A stretch of DNA of 27,500 nucleotides from Candidatus Goldiibacteriota bacterium HGW-Goldbacteria-1. GTDB lineage: Bacteria; Oederibacteriota; PGYV01. Made by a program: the position numbers and the translations under genes. The stretch is taken from the NCBI GenBank assembly GCA_002839855.1, contig PGYV01000002.1, positions 154,691 to 182,190 of the forward strand, given 5' to 3'. The notes beneath the pieces were generated by a model, which worked only from the letters and a program-made list of their open reading frames with translations, did no database searches and was not told the origin of the DNA. Positions 7,956-22,456 of the stretch are shown piece after piece (position 1 is the first letter of the stretch; each line of letters opens with the position of its first letter).

Positions 7956-7974
7956 TCGCAACTTTAACATACAA

Positions 7975-8005
7975 AGCCCGGGTCAAAAGCCCGGGCTTTT
8001 TTTTT
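7975..8005 (+). terminator. Intrinsic terminator after rpsI
   Basis: AGCCCGGG (7975-7982), loop of 7 bases, CCCGGGCT (7990-7997), then a run of nine T. A classical strong terminator ending the ribosomal protein unit. Confidence 0.95.
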
Positions 8006-12500: not shown

Positions 12501-12529
12501 TTGACAGATGATATATAAAATGGTATAAA
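12501..12529 (+). promoter_or_regulatory. Upstream promoter (P1) of the ilv-leu operon
   Basis: A perfect TTGACA (12501-12506), 17 bases, then TATAAA (12524-12529) preceded by TGG, an extended -10. Transcription would begin near 12536, 23 bases before the leader ORF and about 367 bases before ilvD. Confidence 0.85.
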
Positions 12530-12558
12530 TTTATTAATAAAAAAAACGGAGGAAACAA

Positions 12559-12675
12559 ATGGCACACGCGGCAATAGCAAAAATTAACGCCGCAACCATT
12601 CTGTCCTCTACAACCCTTTTACTAACAGTCACGGTCCTTCTAGTCGGATTAGTGCGACTTACAGTCGTCCTTTAA
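12559..12675 (+). CDS. Putative branched-chain leader peptide (38 codons)
   Basis: ATG at 12559 has a strong GGAGGA 5-6 bases upstream and opens a 38-codon frame ending in TAA at 12673-12675. The peptide starts MAHAAIAKINAATILSS. From codon 20 to the end it has 14 Leu/Val in 19 residues, including LLL (codons CTT TTA CTA), TVTVLLV and TVVL; over the whole peptide 9 Leu, 6 Val, 3 Ile and 6 Thr. It sits just after the promoter of the Ile/Val/Leu operon, as do attenuation leader peptides such as ilvL and leuL. Its role would be to sense charged tRNA-Leu and tRNA-Val by ribosome stalling. It is also hydrophobic enough to be a tiny membrane peptide. Expression and function are inference. Confidence 0.75.
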   Translation: MAHAAIAKINAATILSSTTLLLTVTVLLVGLVRLTVVL

Positions 12676-12772
12676 CGGACAACTGGGCGCAAAAATCCGG
12701 CACCAACTTTAACAAACCCAATCAAAAACGATTTTTGCGCCGTAAAAGGTCTATTTTGCTATATTTTTACGG
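12642..12772 (+). promoter_or_regulatory. Structured ilv leader RNA (putative attenuator region)
   Basis: Four dyads lie in series. AGTCG/CGACT (12642-12646 and 12655-12659) falls inside the Leu/Val codons. CAGTCGTCC/GGACAACTG (12662-12670 and 12677-12685, one C-A mismatch) has the leader stop codon in its loop. GGCGCAAAAATC/GATTTTTGCGCC (12686-12697 and 12730-12741) is a perfect 12-bp stem with a 32-base loop. CCGTAAAA/TTTTACGG (12740-12747 and 12765-12772) shares two bases with the preceding stem, so the two compete at their junction. I do not see a GC-rich stem followed directly by a T-run, so the way transcription would be stopped is unresolved. No T-box motif is visible. Confidence 0.55.
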
Positions 12773-12786
12773 ACTTTTAAGGCTAA

Positions 12787-12844
12787 AAAACCCTATTTTT
12801 TTAAGGGTTTTATGGTTGAAGCAAGTGCCATTTTTTGATATAAT
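12787..12844 (+). promoter_or_regulatory. Second promoter (P2) just upstream of ilvD
   Basis: TTGAAG (12816-12821), 17 bases, then a perfect TATAAT (12839-12844) preceded by TGA (extended -10). Start of transcription would be near 12851, about 50 bases before ilvD, bypassing the leader ORF. Just upstream is the AT-rich hairpin AAAACCCT/AGGGTTTT (12787-12794 and 12804-12811) with a T-rich loop; its right arm ends 4 bases before the -35 element, so it may be an operator or a weak terminator for P1 transcripts. Confidence 0.65.
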
Positions 12845-12902
12845 TTTTAAGTTTTATCTTTACAGTTAAATGGTTAATATCACGTAAAACAGGAGGATTA
12901 TT

Positions 12903-14582
12903 ATGAGAAGCGATAAGATGACAAAAGGCCCGGAACGGGCTCCGCACAGGTCACTTTTTAAAGCTATCGGATACACTGACGAAGAATTAAAAAGGCCTAT
13001 AATAGGCGTTGTGAATTCATTTAATGAAGTTATTCCGGGGCATATTCATCTGCGTACAATTGCTGACGCCGTGAAAGCGGGCGTAAGAATGGCAGGTGGC
13101 ACGCCAATGGAATTTCCGGCAATCGGCGTGTGCGACGGAATCGCGATGGGACATCAGGGAATGAAGTATTCACTTGTATCACGCGAATATATTGCTGACA
13201 GCATTGAAATAATGGGAATGGCATATCCTTTTGATGGGCTTGTTTTTATACCAAACTGCGATAAAGTTGTTCCGGGAATGCTTATGGCGGCAGCGCGCTT
13301 GAACATACCAAGCGTTTTTATAAGCGGCGGCGCTATGCTTGCCGGCAAGTATAAAGGCAAAAACTACGATCTTATATCCGGCGGTTTTGAAGCTGTGGGC
13401 GAATGCGCCAACGGAAAAATAACAGAGAAAGAACTTGAAGCCATTGAAAACGTAAGCTGCCCAACCTGCGGTTCCTGTTCCGGTATGTTTACCGCGAACA
13501 CAATGAACTGCATGACAGAAGTGCTGGGATTGGGTTTGCCCGGCAACGGTACCATTCCCGCTGTTTATTCCGAAAGGATAAGGCTTGCCAAAACAGCAGG
13601 CATGCAGATTATGGAAATGGTGGAAAAAGATATTAAGCCGCGCGACATACTTACTGAAAAAGCATTTGAAAACGCGTTCACGCTTGACGTGGCGCTTGGC
13701 GGTTCCACAAATACAATTCTTCACCTTCCGGCAATCGCGCACGAAGCCGGCTTTGAATTCGGGCTGGCAAAGATAAACTCTATCAGCGACAAAACGCCCA
13801 CGCTGTGCAAATTGTCACCGGCACTTTTGCCGACAGGCGGACAGCATTACATACAGGACCTTTATGAAGCCGGCGGCGTGCAGGCAGTTATTAAAGAGCT
13901 TGCCAAAAAGAACCTTGTGCACCTTGACCTTATGACAGTTACCGGAAAAAAGATAAAAGACAATATTAAAGATGTTGAAAATATAAATCCAAACGTGATA
14001 AGGACGCCGGATAACGCGTATTCGCCAAAAGGCGGACTTGCCATACTGTTTGGAAATTTAGCTCCCAACGGCGCTGTTGTAAAGCAGGCGGCTGTTGCTC
14101 CGGAGATGATGAAACGGGAGGCCAGGGCCAGGGTTTTTGAGTCCGAAGAAGACGCGCAAAAAGCGATTCTTGGGAAAAAGATCAAGCCCGGTGATGTAGT
14201 GGTTATAAGGTACGAAGGCCCAAAAGGCGGCCCCGGAATGCGCGAAATGCTTGCGCCCACCGCGGCAATAGCCGGAATGGGATTGGATAAAGAAGTCGCG
14301 CTTTTAACCGACGGCAGGTTTTCAGGCGGAACACGCGGAGCCGCAATAGGCCACGTATCGCCTGAAGCGATGGAAGGCGGCGTAATTGCGATAGTAAAAG
14401 AAGGCGACATAATCGAGATAAATATTCCGGAGAAAAAACTTGAATTAAAAGTTTCTCAGGATGAGATAGATAAAAGGTTCGCGGCATGGACGTGCCCCGA
14501 ACCGAAAGTAAAGACAGGAGTCCTTTACCGTTATTCAAAGAACGTAACTTCCGCGTCAACCGGCGCGGTTTTTAAAGACTAA
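12903..14582 (+). CDS. ilvD: Dihydroxy-acid dehydratase
   Basis: 559 residues. Removes water from 2,3-dihydroxy-isovalerate and -methylvalerate to give the 2-keto acids in valine, leucine and isoleucine synthesis. Cluster-binding cysteines are seen in NCDK (C119) and in [18 protein letters not shown] (C186, C189, C192). The region [15 protein letters not shown] (37-51) lacks the Pro-Cys-Asn cysteine of the [2Fe-2S] plant/mycobacterial type. It matches the E. coli-like and clostridial types instead, so an oxygen-sensitive [4Fe-4S] enzyme is inferred. The C-terminal half shows [12 protein letters not shown] and [22 protein letters not shown] strong AGGAGGA precedes the start. First structural gene of the operon; 23 bases separate it from ilvB. 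Confidence 0.98.
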
Positions 14583-14605: not shown

Positions 14606-16282
14606 ATGAACGGAGCAAAAATATTACTTGAATGCCTGAAAAAAGAAGGCGTGGACACGGTGTTCGGATACCCGGGCGGCGTTGTGCTTCCGCTTTTTGA
14701 TGAAATCTATAACGAAAAAGCCATTAAACTTGTTCTTGTACGCCATGAACAGGGCGCGGCGCATATGGCTGACGGTTATTCGCGTTCCACGGGAAAGACA
14801 GGCGTATGCCTTGCCACATCCGGGCCGGGAGCTACAAACCTTGTAACCGGAATAGCCACAGCGTATATGGATTCAATCCCCATGGTGGCATTAACGGGTC
14901 AGGTTAACAGCAGCCTTATCGGCAATGACGCTTTTCAGGAAGCTGACATGGTGGGAATAACCCGCCCGATAGTTAAACACAACTATCTGGTTAAAGATGT
15001 TAAGGACCTTGCGCAGACAATTAAAAACGCTTTTCACATCGCGTCCACCGGAAGGCCGGGGCCTGTGCTTGTTGACCTGCCGAAAGATGTTTTTACTTCG
15101 GAATTAGAGTTTTCAAAATATCCTGATCAGCCGCTGTTAAGGGGTTACAAACCCACTTATGACGGCAGCAAGGTTCAGATAAAGAAAGCCGCGGAGATGA
15201 TTGAGAAAGCACAGAGGCCGCTTTTATACGTGGGCGGCGGAGTGGTGCTTTCAAACGCGTCGGAAGAGCTGATTAAATTCGCGGAAAAGACTGATATTCC
15301 GATAACCACAACACTTATGGCAATGGATGTAATGCCGTCAAACCATAAATTAAACCTGGGTATGCTTGGAATGCACGGTACAAAGTTCGCCAACTACGCT
15401 GTTCAGGAATCTGACCTATTAATAGCGGTCGGCGCGCGTTTTGACGACAGGGTTACCGGGAAGGTTGCGGATTTTGCGCCGCACGCGGACATAATTCACA
15501 TTGATATAGACCCGTCCGCTATCAGCAAAATTATTAAAGTGGACCTGCCGATAGTTGGTTCGGCAAAAAATATACTTCCGGAACTGACAAAAGAGGTAAA
15601 GAAAAAAGAACACAAAGAGTGGAATACTCAGATATCGCAGTGGAAGAAAGATTTCCCGCTGTCTTACCGCGACAGTGATTCGGAAATAAAGCCGCAGTAT
15701 GTAATTCAGAAAATATCAGAAATGGTAAAAGATGACACCATAATCACCACGGAAGTGGGGCAGCACCAGATGTGGACAGCGCAGTTTTACAGATTCAGAA
15801 AAAACAGGACGTTTTTAACATCCGGCGGGCTTGGGACAATGGGTTATGGATTTCCCGCGGCAATCGGCGCGCAGGCAGGAAACCCGGACAAGCTTGTTAT
15901 AGACATAGCCGGAGACGGTTCCATACAGATGAATATTCAGGAACTTGCCACAGCGGTAAAATATAAGCTGCCTGTAAAAGTGGCAATTCTTAACAATGGT
16001 TATCTTGGAATGGTAAGGCAGTGGCAGGAGCTTTTTTACGGGAAACGTTATTCACACACAATTATTGATAACAGCGTTGACTTTGTGAAACTTGCCGAAG
16101 CGTACGGCGCCAAAGGGATAAGGATTGACAAAAAGCAGGATGTAGAAAAAGCCCTTAAAGAGGCGTTTGCGTATGACGGGCCGGTAATAATGGACTTTAT
16201 CACAGCACGTGAAGAAAACGTATGGCCCATGGTTCCGGCAGGCGCGGCGCTTGGAAAAATGATAGAAGGAGAGCTGGCCTAA
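14606..16282 (+). CDS. ilvB: Acetolactate synthase large subunit
   Basis: 558 residues, typical length. Joins two pyruvates, or pyruvate and 2-oxobutyrate, using thiamine diphosphate, FAD and Mg. The catalytic glutamate is E48 in [18 protein letters not shown]. The thiamine-binding motif starts at GDGS (436-439) and ends at NN (463-464). [15 protein letters not shown] (468-482) belongs to the active-site lid and herbicide-binding region, with W473 present. The middle FAD domain runs about 190-330. AAGGAG stands before the ATG. It is followed by the regulatory subunit ilvN after 22 bases, so this is the feedback-controlled anabolic enzyme rather than the catabolic AlsS. Confidence 0.98.
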
Positions 16283-16304
16283 ACAGCCGGTTGGGTGAAC
16301 TGAC

Positions 16305-16790
16305 ATGACAAAAACAAAAACAATTTCGGTAATAGTGGAAAACCAGCCGGGAGTGCTGGCAAGGATAGCAGGGCTTTTTTCCGGACGCGCGTACAACATT
16401 GATTCGCTTGCGGTAGGGGAAACAGAAGACAAGTCAACTTCGCGCATGACCATAATGGCAACCGGAGACGAACTTGTGCTGGACCAGATAGTAAAGCAGT
16501 TAAACAAACTGATAGACGTTATTAAAGTTGTGGATATGTCGCAGGAAAGTTATGTGGAAAGGGAGCTTGCGCTTATCAAGGTAAATGTGGCAGGCAAGGA
16601 TAAAACAGAGCTGATGAATATTGTAAACGTGTTCAGGGCAAGGATAGTTGACGCCACAAACGAAACGTACATGATTGAAGTGACGGGGACAGATGAAAAG
16701 ATAACGGCGCTGACGGAACTTGTAAAACCTTTCGGCATACAGGAAATGTCAAGGACAGGCGCTGTGGCATTAACAAGGGGTAAAAGGTAA
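16305..16790 (+). CDS. ilvN: Acetolactate synthase small (regulatory) subunit
   Basis: 161 residues, the long two-domain form (IlvN/IlvH type). Residues 5-78 are the ACT domain that binds valine or other end products: TISVIVENQPGVLARIAGLF, then GRAYNIDSLAVGETED. Residues 80-161 are the C-terminal ACT-like domain that activates the catalytic subunit (ELALIKVNVAGKDKTELMNI, ending EMSRTGAVALTRG). Ribosome site is modest (GGGTGA). Lies between ilvB and ilvC, as in many bacteria. Confidence 0.97.
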   Translation: MTKTKTISVIVENQPGVLARIAGLFSGRAYNIDSLAVGETEDKSTSRMTIMATGDELVLDQIVKQLNKLIDVIKVVDMSQESYVERELALIKVNVAGKDKTELMNIVNVFRARIVDATNETYMIEVTGTDEKITALTELVKPFGIQEMSRTGAVALTRGKR

Positions 16791-16817
16791 AAAAATGAAA
16801 TATAAAAAACTTTTTGA

Positions 16818-17876
<1,059 letters not shown>

Positions 17877-17888
17877 TAATTTCATATC

Positions 17889-17925
17889 CGGAAGAAAGCG
17901 CGGTTTAAAGCCGCGCTTTCTTCCG
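17889..17925 (+). terminator. 15-bp perfect hairpin between ilvC and leuA
   Basis: Perfect inverted repeat: arms 17889-17903 and 17911-17925, 7-base loop, core AAGCGCGG/CCGCGCTT. There is no T-run after it, only CTTTCTTCC inside the right arm, so it is not a full terminator. It may protect the 3' end of ilvDBNC mRNA, mark an RNase III processing point, or lower expression of the leu part of the operon. Confidence 0.6.
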
Positions 17926-17955
17926 CCTAAATAGTAAAATATAAGGAGATTACAT

Positions 17956-19533
17956 ATGGCACAGGATAAAGTAATCATATTTGACACCACATTAAGGGAC
18001 GGCGAGCAGGTACCGGGCGCGTCGCTTACTAAAAATGAAAAAATACAGATAGCCCTTCAGCTTGAAAAACTTGGGGTTGATGTCATAGAAGCCGGTTTTC
18101 CCATGTCCTCGCCGGGAGACTTAATATCGGTCGCGGAAATAGCAAAAGCGGTAAAAAAACCCATAATAGCCGGGCTTTGCCGCGCCGTACGCAAAGATAT
18201 TGACGCGTGCAGGGAAGCTTTTAAAAAGACAAGCAAAGGGCGCATTCACACTTTTATCGGCACATCGCCCCAGCATGTGCATTACATCACCCGCACCACA
18301 GAAGAAGAAGTTCTCCGCAGGGCAATTGACGCGGTAAAATACGCAAGGAATTATTGCGGCGATGTTGAATTTTCCGCAATGGACGCCACCCGCACGGATT
18401 TTGATTACCTTTGCAGAATAGTGGAAGAAGTAATTAAAGCCGGCGCGCGTACTGTTGACATTCCCGACTCTGTAGGCTACGCGGAACCATATGAATACGG
18501 CAACCTGATTAAAAAACTTATGAACACAGTCCCGAATATAAATAAAGCCGTGATAGCGGTTCACTGCCACAACGATCTTGGCATGGCAACGGCAAATTCC
18601 CTGATGGCTGTTTTAAACGGAGCCAGGCAGGTGGAATGTACCATTAACGGGCTGGGAGAGCGCGCGGGCAATGCGGCGCTGGAAGAAATTGTAATGGCAA
18701 TGCAGGTAAGAAAAGATATTTATAAAACTGTCACCAACATCAACACAGAAGAAATTTACAGGACATCAAAGCTTGTAACCAGGCTTACAGGAATGCCTGT
18801 TCAGCCGAATAAATCTGTTGTCGGCGAAAACGCGTTCGCGCACGCGTCCGGAATTCATCAGGACGCCATTTTAAAGCACGAATCCACTTTTGGCATAATG
18901 ACTCCGCAGGCAATCGGCATTCCGGGGCATGAACTGGTATTAACCGCGCGTTCCGGCAAACACGCGCTGCAGCACAGGCTGAATTACCTTGGCTATAAGA
19001 TTTCTGACGCGCAGCTGCCTGATACGTACGCGAAATTCCTGACAATTGCGGATAAGAAAAAAGAAGTTTTTGATGAAGACCTTGTACGCATGATGGAAGG
19101 TAATGACGCAAGCTCGCACGGTATTTACAACCTGGATTATATTTATGTGGCCACCGGCAATAAAATAGTACCGACAGCCACCCTTGAAATTACCAAAGAC
19201 GGCAAGTCGTGCACAAAAGCGGCGGTTGGCGACGGGCCGGTGGATGCTATGTACAAAGCAATAAACGAAATAACCGGAGAAAATAACCTTAAGCTTACGG
19301 ATTACCAGATAAAGGCAGTTACAAAAGGCACGGAAGCCATGGGTGAAGTGACGGTAAGAGTGGCAAAAGAAGGCAATGAAGTGACAGGGCGCGGCGCTTC
19401 AACGGATATCCTTGAAGCAAGCGCGAAAGCGTACCTTTCGGCAATTACAAAACTTTCAATGGATAAGAAAAATTCAGATGTAAAGAAAGCTGCGGTAAAG
19501 AAAGCAAAAAATAAAAAAGCGGCAAAAAAATAA
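17956..19533 (+). CDS. leuA: 2-isopropylmalate synthase
   Basis: 525 residues. Condenses acetyl-CoA with 2-ketoisovalerate, the first committed step to leucine. The catalytic TIM barrel begins FDTTLRDGEQVPGASLT (R14, D15), the metal-binding HCHNDLGMATANS lies near residue 200, followed by NGLGERAGNAALEE. FAHASGIHQDAILKH is in the linker region. The C-terminal LeuA regulatory domain (about 380-500) is the leucine feedback site (TATLEITKDGKSCTKAAVGDGPVDAMYKA fold). The length and these motifs separate it from homocitrate and citramalate synthases. The last 23 or so residues are a Lys/Ala tail (VKKAAVKKAKNKKAAKK). AAGGAG stands before the ATG. It follows the ilv genes in the same direction. Confidence 0.96.
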   Translation: MAQDKVIIFDTTLRDGEQVPGASLTKNEKIQIALQLEKLGVDVIEAGFPMSSPGDLISVAEIAKAVKKPIIAGLCRAVRKDIDACREAFKKTSKGRIHTFIGTSPQHVHYITRTTEEEVLRRAIDAVKYARNYCGDVEFSAMDATRTDFDYLCRIVEEVIKAGARTVDIPDSVGYAEPYEYGNLIKKLMNTVPNINKAVIAVHCHNDLGMATANSLMAVLNGARQVECTINGLGERAGNAALEEIVMAMQVRKDIYKTVTNINTEEIYRTSKLVTRLTGMPVQPNKSVVGENAFAHASGIHQDAILKHESTFGIMTPQAIGIPGHELVLTARSGKHALQHRLNYLGYKISDAQLPDTYAKFLTIADKKKEVFDEDLVRMMEGNDASSHGIYNLDYIYVATGNKIVPTATLEITKDGKSCTKAAVGDGPVDAMYKAINEITGENNLKLTDYQIKAVTKGTEAMGEVTVRVAKEGNEVTGRGASTDILEASAKAYLSAITKLSMDKKNSDVKKAAVKKAKNKKAAKK

Positions 19534-19556
19534 TATAAGCAAAAGGAGAGTCTATA

Positions 19557-20822
19557 ATGGGAATGAACATTGCGGAAAAGATATTAGCCGCCAAAAGCGG
19601 CAAGAAACAGGTGGAACCCGGTGAACTGGTAATAGCGGATATTGACCTTGTACTGGCAAACGACATCACAGCGCCCATTGCAATAAAAGAATTTAAAGGC
19701 GCCGGCGCCACAAAAGTATGGGACCGCACAAAAGTCGCGCTTGTACCGGACCACTTTACCCCGAACAAGGATATTAAGTCAGCGGAACAGGCAAAGATGT
19801 TAAGGGAATTCGCGCATGAGCAGAAACTTACTCATTATTATGACCAGTCAGATGTCGGCATAGAGCACGCACTTCTGCCGGAACAGGGCGTAGTGGTGCC
19901 GGGAGACCTTGTAATAGGCGCGGATTCGCATACCTGCACATACGGCGCGCTTGGCGCGTTTGCCACGGGTGTGGGCTCAACTGATGCCGCTTTTGGTATG
20001 ATGACCGGAAAAGCTTGGTTTAAGGTTCCGCCTTCAATAAAGTTTGTATATAAAGGAAAGCTTAATAAATGGGTAAGTTCAAAGGATTTAATACTGCACA
20101 CAATAGGCGATATAGGCGTGGACGGAGCCCTGTATAAAGCAATGGAATTTACAGGCCCGGTCATTGACAAACTTTCAATGGATGCAAGGCTTACAATTTC
20201 TAACATGGCGATAGAAGCCGGCGGAAAAGCGGGCCTTATGAATCCGGACGAGACCACAATGGAATATGTAAAAAAGCGCGCCGAGCATAAATGGAAAGTA
20301 TACACAAGCGATAAGGACGCGAAATACGAAAATGTTATAGAGTATGACTGCTCTAAAATAGAGCCTGTGGTATCGTGCCCGCATCTGCCGGAAAATACAA
20401 AGCCGGCTTCAAAACTTTCTAAAGTAGTCATAGATCAGTCGGTTATCGGGTCATGCACCAACGGCAGAATGGAAGATTTAAGGATAGCAGCCAAAATTTT
20501 AAAAGGTAAAAAGATAAACTCCCGCGTAAGGTGCCTTATTTTTCCCGGAACAAAAGAAATTTACATGCAGGCGATACACGAAGGGCTTGTGGATATTTTT
20601 GTCGGCGCGGGCGCCATATTCAGCATGCCCACGTGCGGGCCGTGCCTTGGAGGCCACATGGGAATTCTGGCAAAAGGTGAAGTTGCAATTTCCACGACAA
20701 ACAGAAATTTTGTAGGCAGAATGGGTCATACGGAATCATCCGTATATCTTTCTTCGCCCGCTATAGCTGCAGCATCGGCCATCCTTGGCAGGATAGGCAC
20801 ACCTGATGAGATTAAAAAATAA
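19557..20822 (+). CDS. leuC: 3-isopropylmalate dehydratase large subunit
   Basis: 421 residues, the short form (about 420) found in archaea and many anaerobes rather than the roughly 465-residue enterobacterial form. Aconitase superfamily; isomerises 2- to 3-isopropylmalate with a [4Fe-4S] cluster. Cluster cysteines: C300 (IGSCTNGR), C360 and C363 ([10 protein letters not shown]). [21 protein letters not shown] (121-141) is the substrate region. AAGGAG ends 8 bases before the ATG. Works with the leuD product, whose gene starts 11 bases downstream. A homoaconitase-type role cannot be excluded from the family alone, but the leu context settles it. Confidence 0.96.
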
Positions 20823-20833
20823 CGGAGGATAAT

Positions 20834-21331
20834 ATGAACATAAAAGGGAAAGTATGGAAGTTTAAGGATGACGTTGATACGGATCTTATAATTCCGGCAA
20901 GGTATTTAAATACATCCGACCCTGTGGAACTTGCAAAGCACTGCATGGAAGACGCGGATAAAACTTTTGCCGGCAAGGTAGGTAAGGGCGACATTATAGT
21001 GGCGGGAAAAAACTTCGGCTGCGGAAGTTCGCGCGAACACGCGCCTGTGGCTATTAAGGCTGTAGGAGTGTCATGTGTTATAGCCAAAGATTTTGCCAGG
21101 ATTTTTTACAGGAATTCATTTAATATCGGCCTTCCCATATTTGAATCTGAAGAAGCGTCCGCAAAGATTGCCGAAGGCGATACCGTGGAAATTGACGCGG
21201 CAAAGGGCGTAATTAAAAACATTACAAAAAACGAAACATACAAAGTAAAACCCATTCCGCCTTTTATGCAGGAACTTGTGGAAGCGGGCGGGCTTTTAAA
21301 GTACGCGAAAACAAAATACAAGATAAAATAA
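20834..21331 (+). CDS. leuD: 3-isopropylmalate dehydratase small subunit
   Basis: 165 residues, short form matching the short LeuC. Carries the swivel domain of the aconitase fold: [14 protein letters not shown] (12-25) and [19 protein letters not shown] (58-76), where the Ser-Arg contact the substrate. [12 protein letters not shown] near residue 95 is also conserved. GGAGGA lies 5 bases before the ATG. 48 bases separate it from leuB. Confidence 0.97.
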
Positions 21332-21379
21332 GAAATTCAAAATCAGATAAAAACTGAAAAAATTGAGAGGAGAATCAGA

Positions 21380-22456
21380 ATGGCCAAGTCAAAGTCGTAC
21401 AACATAGCTTTAATGCCGGGAGACGGAACAGGACCGGAAGTTTTAGCGGAAGGTTTAAAAGTTTTAAAAGTTGCCGGAGCAAAGTACGGGGTAAAATTAA
21501 ATTTAGAGAAATATGATTTTGGCGGGGAAAGATACAAAAAGACCGGCGAAACCCTTCCTGATTCGGCTATAGAAGAATTAAAGAAATCAGACGCCATTTA
21601 TCTTGGCGCCATAGGCCATCCTGACGTAAAGCCGGGAATACTGGAACTTGGCATACTGTTAAAATTACGTTTTGCCCTTGACCAGTACATCAATTTAAGG
21701 CCGGTAAAACTTTATCCCAACGTGGAAACCCCGCTTAAAGATAAAGGCCCGGAGCACATTGATTTTGTGGTAATCAGGGAAAACTCAGGCGGCATATACA
21801 CAGGAATGGGCGGAGTGGCGCAAAAAGGGACGCAGAACGAAGTTGCCACGCAGGTTATGGTTTACACAAGGCCGGTAGTTGACCGCTGCTTAAAGTATGC
21901 CTATGAATTTACAAAGAAGAGAAACAGCAAAAAGAAAATGCTTACGCTTGTACATAAAAATAATGTATTAACACACTGCGGCGACCTGTGGGTAAGGGCG
22001 CACAAAGAAATGGGCGACAAATATTATAAGGGAATCAAACAGGATTACGCGCACGTGGATGCCACCACAATGTGGTTTGTAAAGAACCCGGAATTTTTTG
22101 ATGTTATCGTAACAGAAAATTTGTTCGGCGATATCATCACCGACCTTGGCGCCATGATTCAGGGCGGCATGGGAATAGCAGCCGGCGGAAACATTAATCC
22201 GGAAGGCGTATCCATGTTTGAACCAATCGGCGGTTCTGCCCCCAAATACACGGGCAAGAACGTCATTAATCCGCTTGCTGCAATAAACGCCGGCGCGATG
22301 ATGATGGACACGCTTGGCGAAACAAAGATGGCAAAGTCAATTGATAACGCTGTAACAGCAGCGCTTGCATCCGGCAAAATTAAAAGCATGTCTGCCGGCA
22401 GAATGGGAATGGGAACAAAAGAAATGGGCGATTTTGTTGCGTCGCTGGTTAAATAA
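21380..22456 (+). CDS. leuB: 3-isopropylmalate dehydrogenase
   Basis: 358 residues, isocitrate/isopropylmalate dehydrogenase fold. Oxidises and decarboxylates 3-isopropylmalate with NAD. Motifs: [10 protein letters not shown] (12-21), the [22 protein letters not shown] segment (substrate arginines and the leucine-selecting region), [12 protein letters not shown], and the metal and cofactor part [19 protein letters not shown] then [22 protein letters not shown] precedes the start. The leu order A-C-D-B is complete, and asd follows after 28 bases. Confidence 0.95.

Follow-up and report, generated by a model that had tools for sequence, protein, structure and literature searches.

The leaders of the Escherichia coli ilvGMEDA, ilvBN, and leu operons follow the classical protector, preemptor, and attenuator logic, with Leu/Val control codons and canonical terminators. 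The locus described here lies in a 27,500-nucleotide stretch of DNA (hereafter the window) from the 2.86 Mb genome of Candidatus Goldiibacteriota bacterium HGW-Goldbacteria-1, and appears to have the logic and the Leu/Val control codons in common with these leaders, whereas the canonical terminators belong to E. coli only. Leader-peptide attenuation is also known for operons that begin with ilvD. Staphylococcus aureus has an ilvD-first ilv-leu operon with a Leu-rich leader peptide, predicted alternative terminator and antiterminator structures, and a leucine-responsive expression shown by experiment, all of which except the last have a likeness in the window (PMC5794164). The S. aureus peptide, however, is a 26-aa Ile/Leu peptide, its predicted terminator hairpin lies 52 nt past the stop codon, the operon is under CodY control, and a bypass promoter is not mentioned in the accessible text (PMC5794164). 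Rli60 of Listeria monocytogenes, an experimentally supported attenuator of an ilvD-first operon, resembles the proposed control region of the window in that it lies upstream of ilvD, works through the ribosome, and has four segments that alternate in pairing, but differs in its 13-aa peptide, its mutationally supported terminator hairpin, and its single promoter (PMC5864092). The ilvBNC attenuator and ilvB-II motif of Corynebacterium likewise combine a Leu/Val leader with an overlapping antiterminator and terminator (PMC10272879, PMC11857589). Their first hairpin prevents translation of the leader peptide from starting, as proposed here for the window, and their leader ORF is leaderless, as in the sister families described below (PMC11857589); in contrast to our locus, the operon begins with ilvB, the peptide has 15-17 aa, and the terminator carries a U tract (PMC10272879, PMC11857589). 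Since attenuation of operons that start with ilvD has precedents in S. aureus and Listeria, the novelty is weaker than the first-pass annotation of the window stated: we found no description of such control for this lineage in the open-access literature, but the ilvD-first order itself is not new (PMC5794164; PMC5864092). What is new here is a probable attenuator that belongs to a candidate phylum and lacks a canonical terminator.

The leader ORF and its conservation

The region upstream of ilvD very probably controls the ilv-leu operon by ribosome-mediated transcription attenuation, with leucine as the main amino acid sensed and valine as a second one. The operon encodes the valine and leucine pathways, and the attenuation layout assigned to the region in the first-pass annotation largely holds on the conserved leader, the alternative helices, and the operon context. 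The features are listed in Table 1.

Table 1. Features of the attenuator region and its operon; positions are those of the window unless a locus is given.
Feature	Position	Strand	Remarks
Promoter P1, TTGACA-17-TATAAA	12501..12529	+	Near-consensus; would drive the leader transcript
Shine-Dalgarno GGAGG of the leader ORF	12548..12552	+	
Masking hairpin over ribosome site and start codon of the leader	12548..12609 (12548-12553:12604-12609, 12558-12562:12596-12600, 12568-12572:12589-12593)	+	
Leader peptide ORF of 38 codons, second half rich in Leu/Val	12559..12675 (ATG to TAA)	+	MAHAAIAKINAATILSSTTLLLTVTVLLVGLVRLTVVL
CCTTTTAC over the Leu codons	12615..12622	+	Can pair with 12742-12749; may form a closing helix
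Leu-Leu-Leu control codons 20-22, CTT TTA CTA	12616..12624	+	Sequence; footprint folding; a ribosome held up here would keep the antiterminator arm accessible
Antiterminator hairpin	12643..12701 (12643-12670:12677-12701)	+	TAA stop 12673-12675 in loop; folding, synonymous and swap tests
3:4 hairpin, presumed OFF structure	12686..12741 (12686-12697:12730-12741)	+	Perfect 12-bp stem GGCGCAAAAATC/GATTTTTGCGCC
Purine-rich GTAAAAGG (12742-12749), then TCTATTTT	12742..12757	+	Recurring T-poor then T-rich pattern after 3:4
Short A/T-rich inverted repeat AAAACCCT/AGGGTTTT	12787..12811	+	Similar to the methyltransferase gene of G001 at its 3' end
Promoter P2, TTGAAG-17-TATAAT, TG 5' of -10	12816..12844	+	Between attenuator and ilvD
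ilvD, first structural gene	12903..14582	+	TIGR00110 above cut-off
ilvB, ilvN, ilvC, leuA, leuC, leuD, leuB	14606..22456	+	Then asd, purB to 24848
Tam-like SAM methyltransferase gene, three genomes	L112:12919-13710; L119:3093-3884; L121	- (L112)	

The -10 box of P1 ends 29 nt upstream of the leader ATG in the window, and P1 is present in all ten leaders found in the order, with its -10 end 25-36 nt from the leader start codon. Leucine and valine account for 14 of the last 19 codons of the ORF. An ORF like the leader did not arise in any of 5000 Markov-shuffled versions of the region, the runner-up among the short ATG ORFs of the window has a score of 8, and the folding of the leader transcript is 5 sd better than that of shuffled sequences; the promoter, the strong ribosome site, and the short Leu/Val-rich ORF with a Leu-Leu-Leu run, as first annotated, are borne out by the sequence and the shuffle test. 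The ribosome site and the conserved frame suggest that the ORF is translated, and its primary sensor is likely to be the Leu-Leu-Leu run at codons 20-22, followed by Val 24.

We surveyed 14 genomes of the order (one MAG of which, apparently G013, was deposited under the name candidate division FCPU426) and found the leader in ten of them, in a single copy each and invariably upstream of ilvD; only about seven of these leaders are independent. Among the genomes without a scorable leader, the contig of G008 ends inside ilvD, G005 and G011 have no ilvD match, and G006 retains ilvD and a P2-like promoter with the leader lost. The nucleotide sequences of the leaders are very different across families, and the start, the stop, a length of 36-40 codons, and the Leu/Val-rich second half are kept. 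The four changes between the leader ORFs of the window's genome (G000) and G002 are all synonymous. The cross-genome comparison that had been proposed as a check on the leader thus found the frame, stop, and Leu/Val richness kept in every leader (10/10).

No T-box riboswitch (RF00230) was matched in 45 genomes of the phylum, and the Rfam amino-acid leader families, including Leu_leader, gave no match to the leader at the gathering threshold or up to E = 1. Similar leaders were not seen upstream of trpE or hisG in the same genome. A tandem degenerate repeat (CACCTGTCACTTGCCAC-like) lies upstream of hisG there (L158, about 1180-1430).

Alternative helices and the proposed switch

The antiterminator pairs the last ~11 leader codons with RNA downstream of the stop codon, at an energy of -23 to -35 kcal/mol in every genome with a leader. 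Against synonymous codon choices, its pairing gave p 0.002 in the window, <0.001 in G003, G004, and G009, and 0.006 in G010, with weaker values of 0.04-0.06 in G013 and G007 and of 0.15 in G012; when partners were swapped between leaders, the own partner was best in 7 of 9. The perfect stem of the 3:4 hairpin is the sole one of 12 bp in the window (0/100 shuffles), and the alignment of the leaders shows two-sided changes at four of its 11 pairs. Because the antiterminator's 3' arm contains the 5' arm of 3:4, the two structures are mutually exclusive, and both are kept by compensation despite the change in sequence, the antiterminator through synonymous codon choice and 3:4 through its two-sided changes; this was the outcome of the check on the stems that had also been proposed. 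We placed the weight on the synonymous and swap tests, since the shuffle controls of alignment tools are not probabilities for related sequences. The masking hairpin, which pairs the leader's ribosome site and start codon with codons about 10-17, beats most synonymous alternatives in all families (p <0.001 to 0.06), and its own partner came first in only 4 of 9 swaps; the synonymous-codon tests thus support both the antiterminator and the masking hairpin. A lower stem from the bases flanking 3:4 was also sought by eye and rejected as inconsistent between families. The first-pass annotation had described a series of dyads, one with the stop codon in its loop and one a perfect 12-bp stem. Folding and the stem search recover the dyads and both of these features, but the best-supported switch is one long antiterminator centred on the stop codon against the 12-bp stem.

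On the attenuator reading, RNA polymerase would start at P1, with a ribosome trailing through the leader ORF. When Leu-tRNA (or Val-tRNA) is short, the ribosome would stall at about codons 20-25, upstream of 12643, the antiterminator would fold during transcription and take the 5' arm of 3:4, and the polymerase would continue into ilvD. When the amino acids are sufficient, the ribosome would reach the stop codon in the antiterminator loop and open this hairpin, 3:4 would form, and transcription would mostly end in the T-rich stretch downstream of the stem, possibly with protein factors involved. The masking hairpin would limit later ribosomes, so that the pioneer ribosome would decide, and P2, downstream of the attenuator, would provide a basal level that bypasses it. 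The geometry obtained by folding the window with the ribosome footprint masked fits this scheme: stalls at codons 16-25 weaken 3:4 and permit the antiterminator, and a ribosome at codon 26 through the stop leaves 3:4 intact. At equilibrium, however, the switch is partial in the window, where several of the stall positions still favour 3:4, and absent in G013, where all of them do, and the model therefore needs cotranscriptional kinetics. These should favour the antiterminator, which is completed before the 3' arm of 3:4 is transcribed.

Sister families (G015, G021, G026, G029, G032, G035; L124, L125, L126, L127, L128, L129) carry a Val-rich leader ORF upstream of ilvD. Its ATG lies only 5-9 nt past the -10 box, so this ORF is apparently leaderless. 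The stop codon again lies in a hairpin, with the compensatory changes GTGGGC/GCCCAC, TTGGGC/GCCCAA, and GTGGGT/ACCCAC, and the RNA past it is C-rich and G-poor; in these families we saw neither a counterpart of the 3:4 stem nor a terminator.

The output step

A canonical intrinsic terminator is absent after 3:4 in the window, where no U tract adjoins the foot of the 12-bp stem. The loop of 3:4 has 32 nt and is A/C-rich, and a T-rich tract starts 8 nt past the stem. This pattern recurs in the ten leaders, in which T makes up 7-20% of the first 8 bases after 3:4 and 57-78% of the next 8, and it agrees with the first-pass remark that no classical terminator is visible. Elsewhere in the window, a classical intrinsic terminator sequence is present at 7973-7999, downstream of ribosomal protein genes, which suggests that the organism uses classical terminators.

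It is possible, though we hold it to be unlikely, that the same leader and ribosome sensing act through Rho, the A/C-rich, G-poor RNA freed past the stop codon recruiting the factor and 3:4 merely pausing the polymerase. Rho is present in the order, a standard terminator is absent, and both the 3:4 loop and the RNA past the stop codon in the sister families are C-rich and G-poor. In its simple form, however, this scheme has the wrong sign, since stalling of the ribosome exposes more downstream RNA rather than less, and the recurrence of the T-rich tract at a similar distance from the stem in most members also speaks against it.

Doubtful, too, is an OFF state in the form of a multi-branched terminator, in which pairing of GTAAAAGG with the Leu codons at CCTTTTAC would place the T-rich tract immediately behind the closing helix. 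Should this be the OFF state, a stalled ribosome would not only free the antiterminator but also directly block the closing helix. The helix has 8 perfect pairs in G000 and G002 and was found unprompted by a consensus fold, 74.7% of its cells are paired against 37-53% when it is slid, and the T content jumps immediately past the purine segment. In G000, G001, G002, G003, and G009, the sequence most complementary to this segment is that of the Leu run, where the mean profile also peaks. Nevertheless, the helix did not outperform synonymous codon choice (p 0.05 to 0.99) and had no clear advantage over swapped partners, and its pairing is poor in G004, in G012, and in a large part of family f6; for its failure against these two nulls we dropped it as an established element and retain it as a rival. 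A similar pairing has been proposed for the actinobacterial LEU element upstream of leuA, between a Leu-codon run and a downstream purine-rich segment, but the LEU element involves a pseudoknot and pairing with the leuA Shine-Dalgarno sequence, whereas the purine segment in the window is not the ilvD ribosome site (PMC1262725).

P2, the methyltransferase gene, and the target of control

P2 recurs between the leader and ilvD in the order, above shuffles in 8 of 10 cases and weak in G003 and G013, and with it in place the attenuator would govern no more than a part of the transcription of ilvD. The genes ilvN and leuD fell below the E-value limit of the profile search and were named by position and sequence. 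The leuA matches in some relatives (L136, L137, L138, L141) cross one or two in-frame stop codons, possibly reflecting a shorter C terminus.

Three relatives (G001, G010, and G013) carry an intact methyltransferase gene directly downstream of the leader, followed by ilvD with its own P2. Its best NCBIfam match, in the run on G001 and G010, is trans-aconitate 2-methyltransferase, below the cut-off of that family, and a second copy was not found elsewhere in the order. G007 retains a remnant, inspection by eye points to another in G012, and the inverted repeat in the window is likely to be a relic of the gene. This arrangement raises the improbable reading that the leader originally served a methyltransferase now absent from the window, with ilvD driven by P2. 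Yet G003, G004, and G009 carry the leader and have no methyltransferase gene there, the gene was lost while the leader remained intact, and the Leu/Val codons suit the ilv-leu operon. That the methyltransferase might be tied to an intermediate of the leucine pathway is only a thought. That the leader structures act on the translation of ilvD or on processing of the mRNA, a reading which the first-pass annotation raised because no terminator was visible and which has no direct observation in its favour, is most improbable, since the ilvD ribosome site lies about 150 nt past 3:4 with P2 between them, and in relatives several hundred nucleotides or an 800-nt gene (a whole gene in three of them) intervene.

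The attenuator reading would extend ribosome-mediated amino-acid attenuation to an uncultured candidate phylum where the T-box was not found, and within this phylum it would take two architectures, one with a masked ribosome site and one, in the sister families, whose leader ORF is apparently leaderless. Testable questions on how attenuators of this kind stop RNA polymerase follow from the lack of a canonical terminator, from the bypass promoter, and from the recurring purine-then-T pattern.
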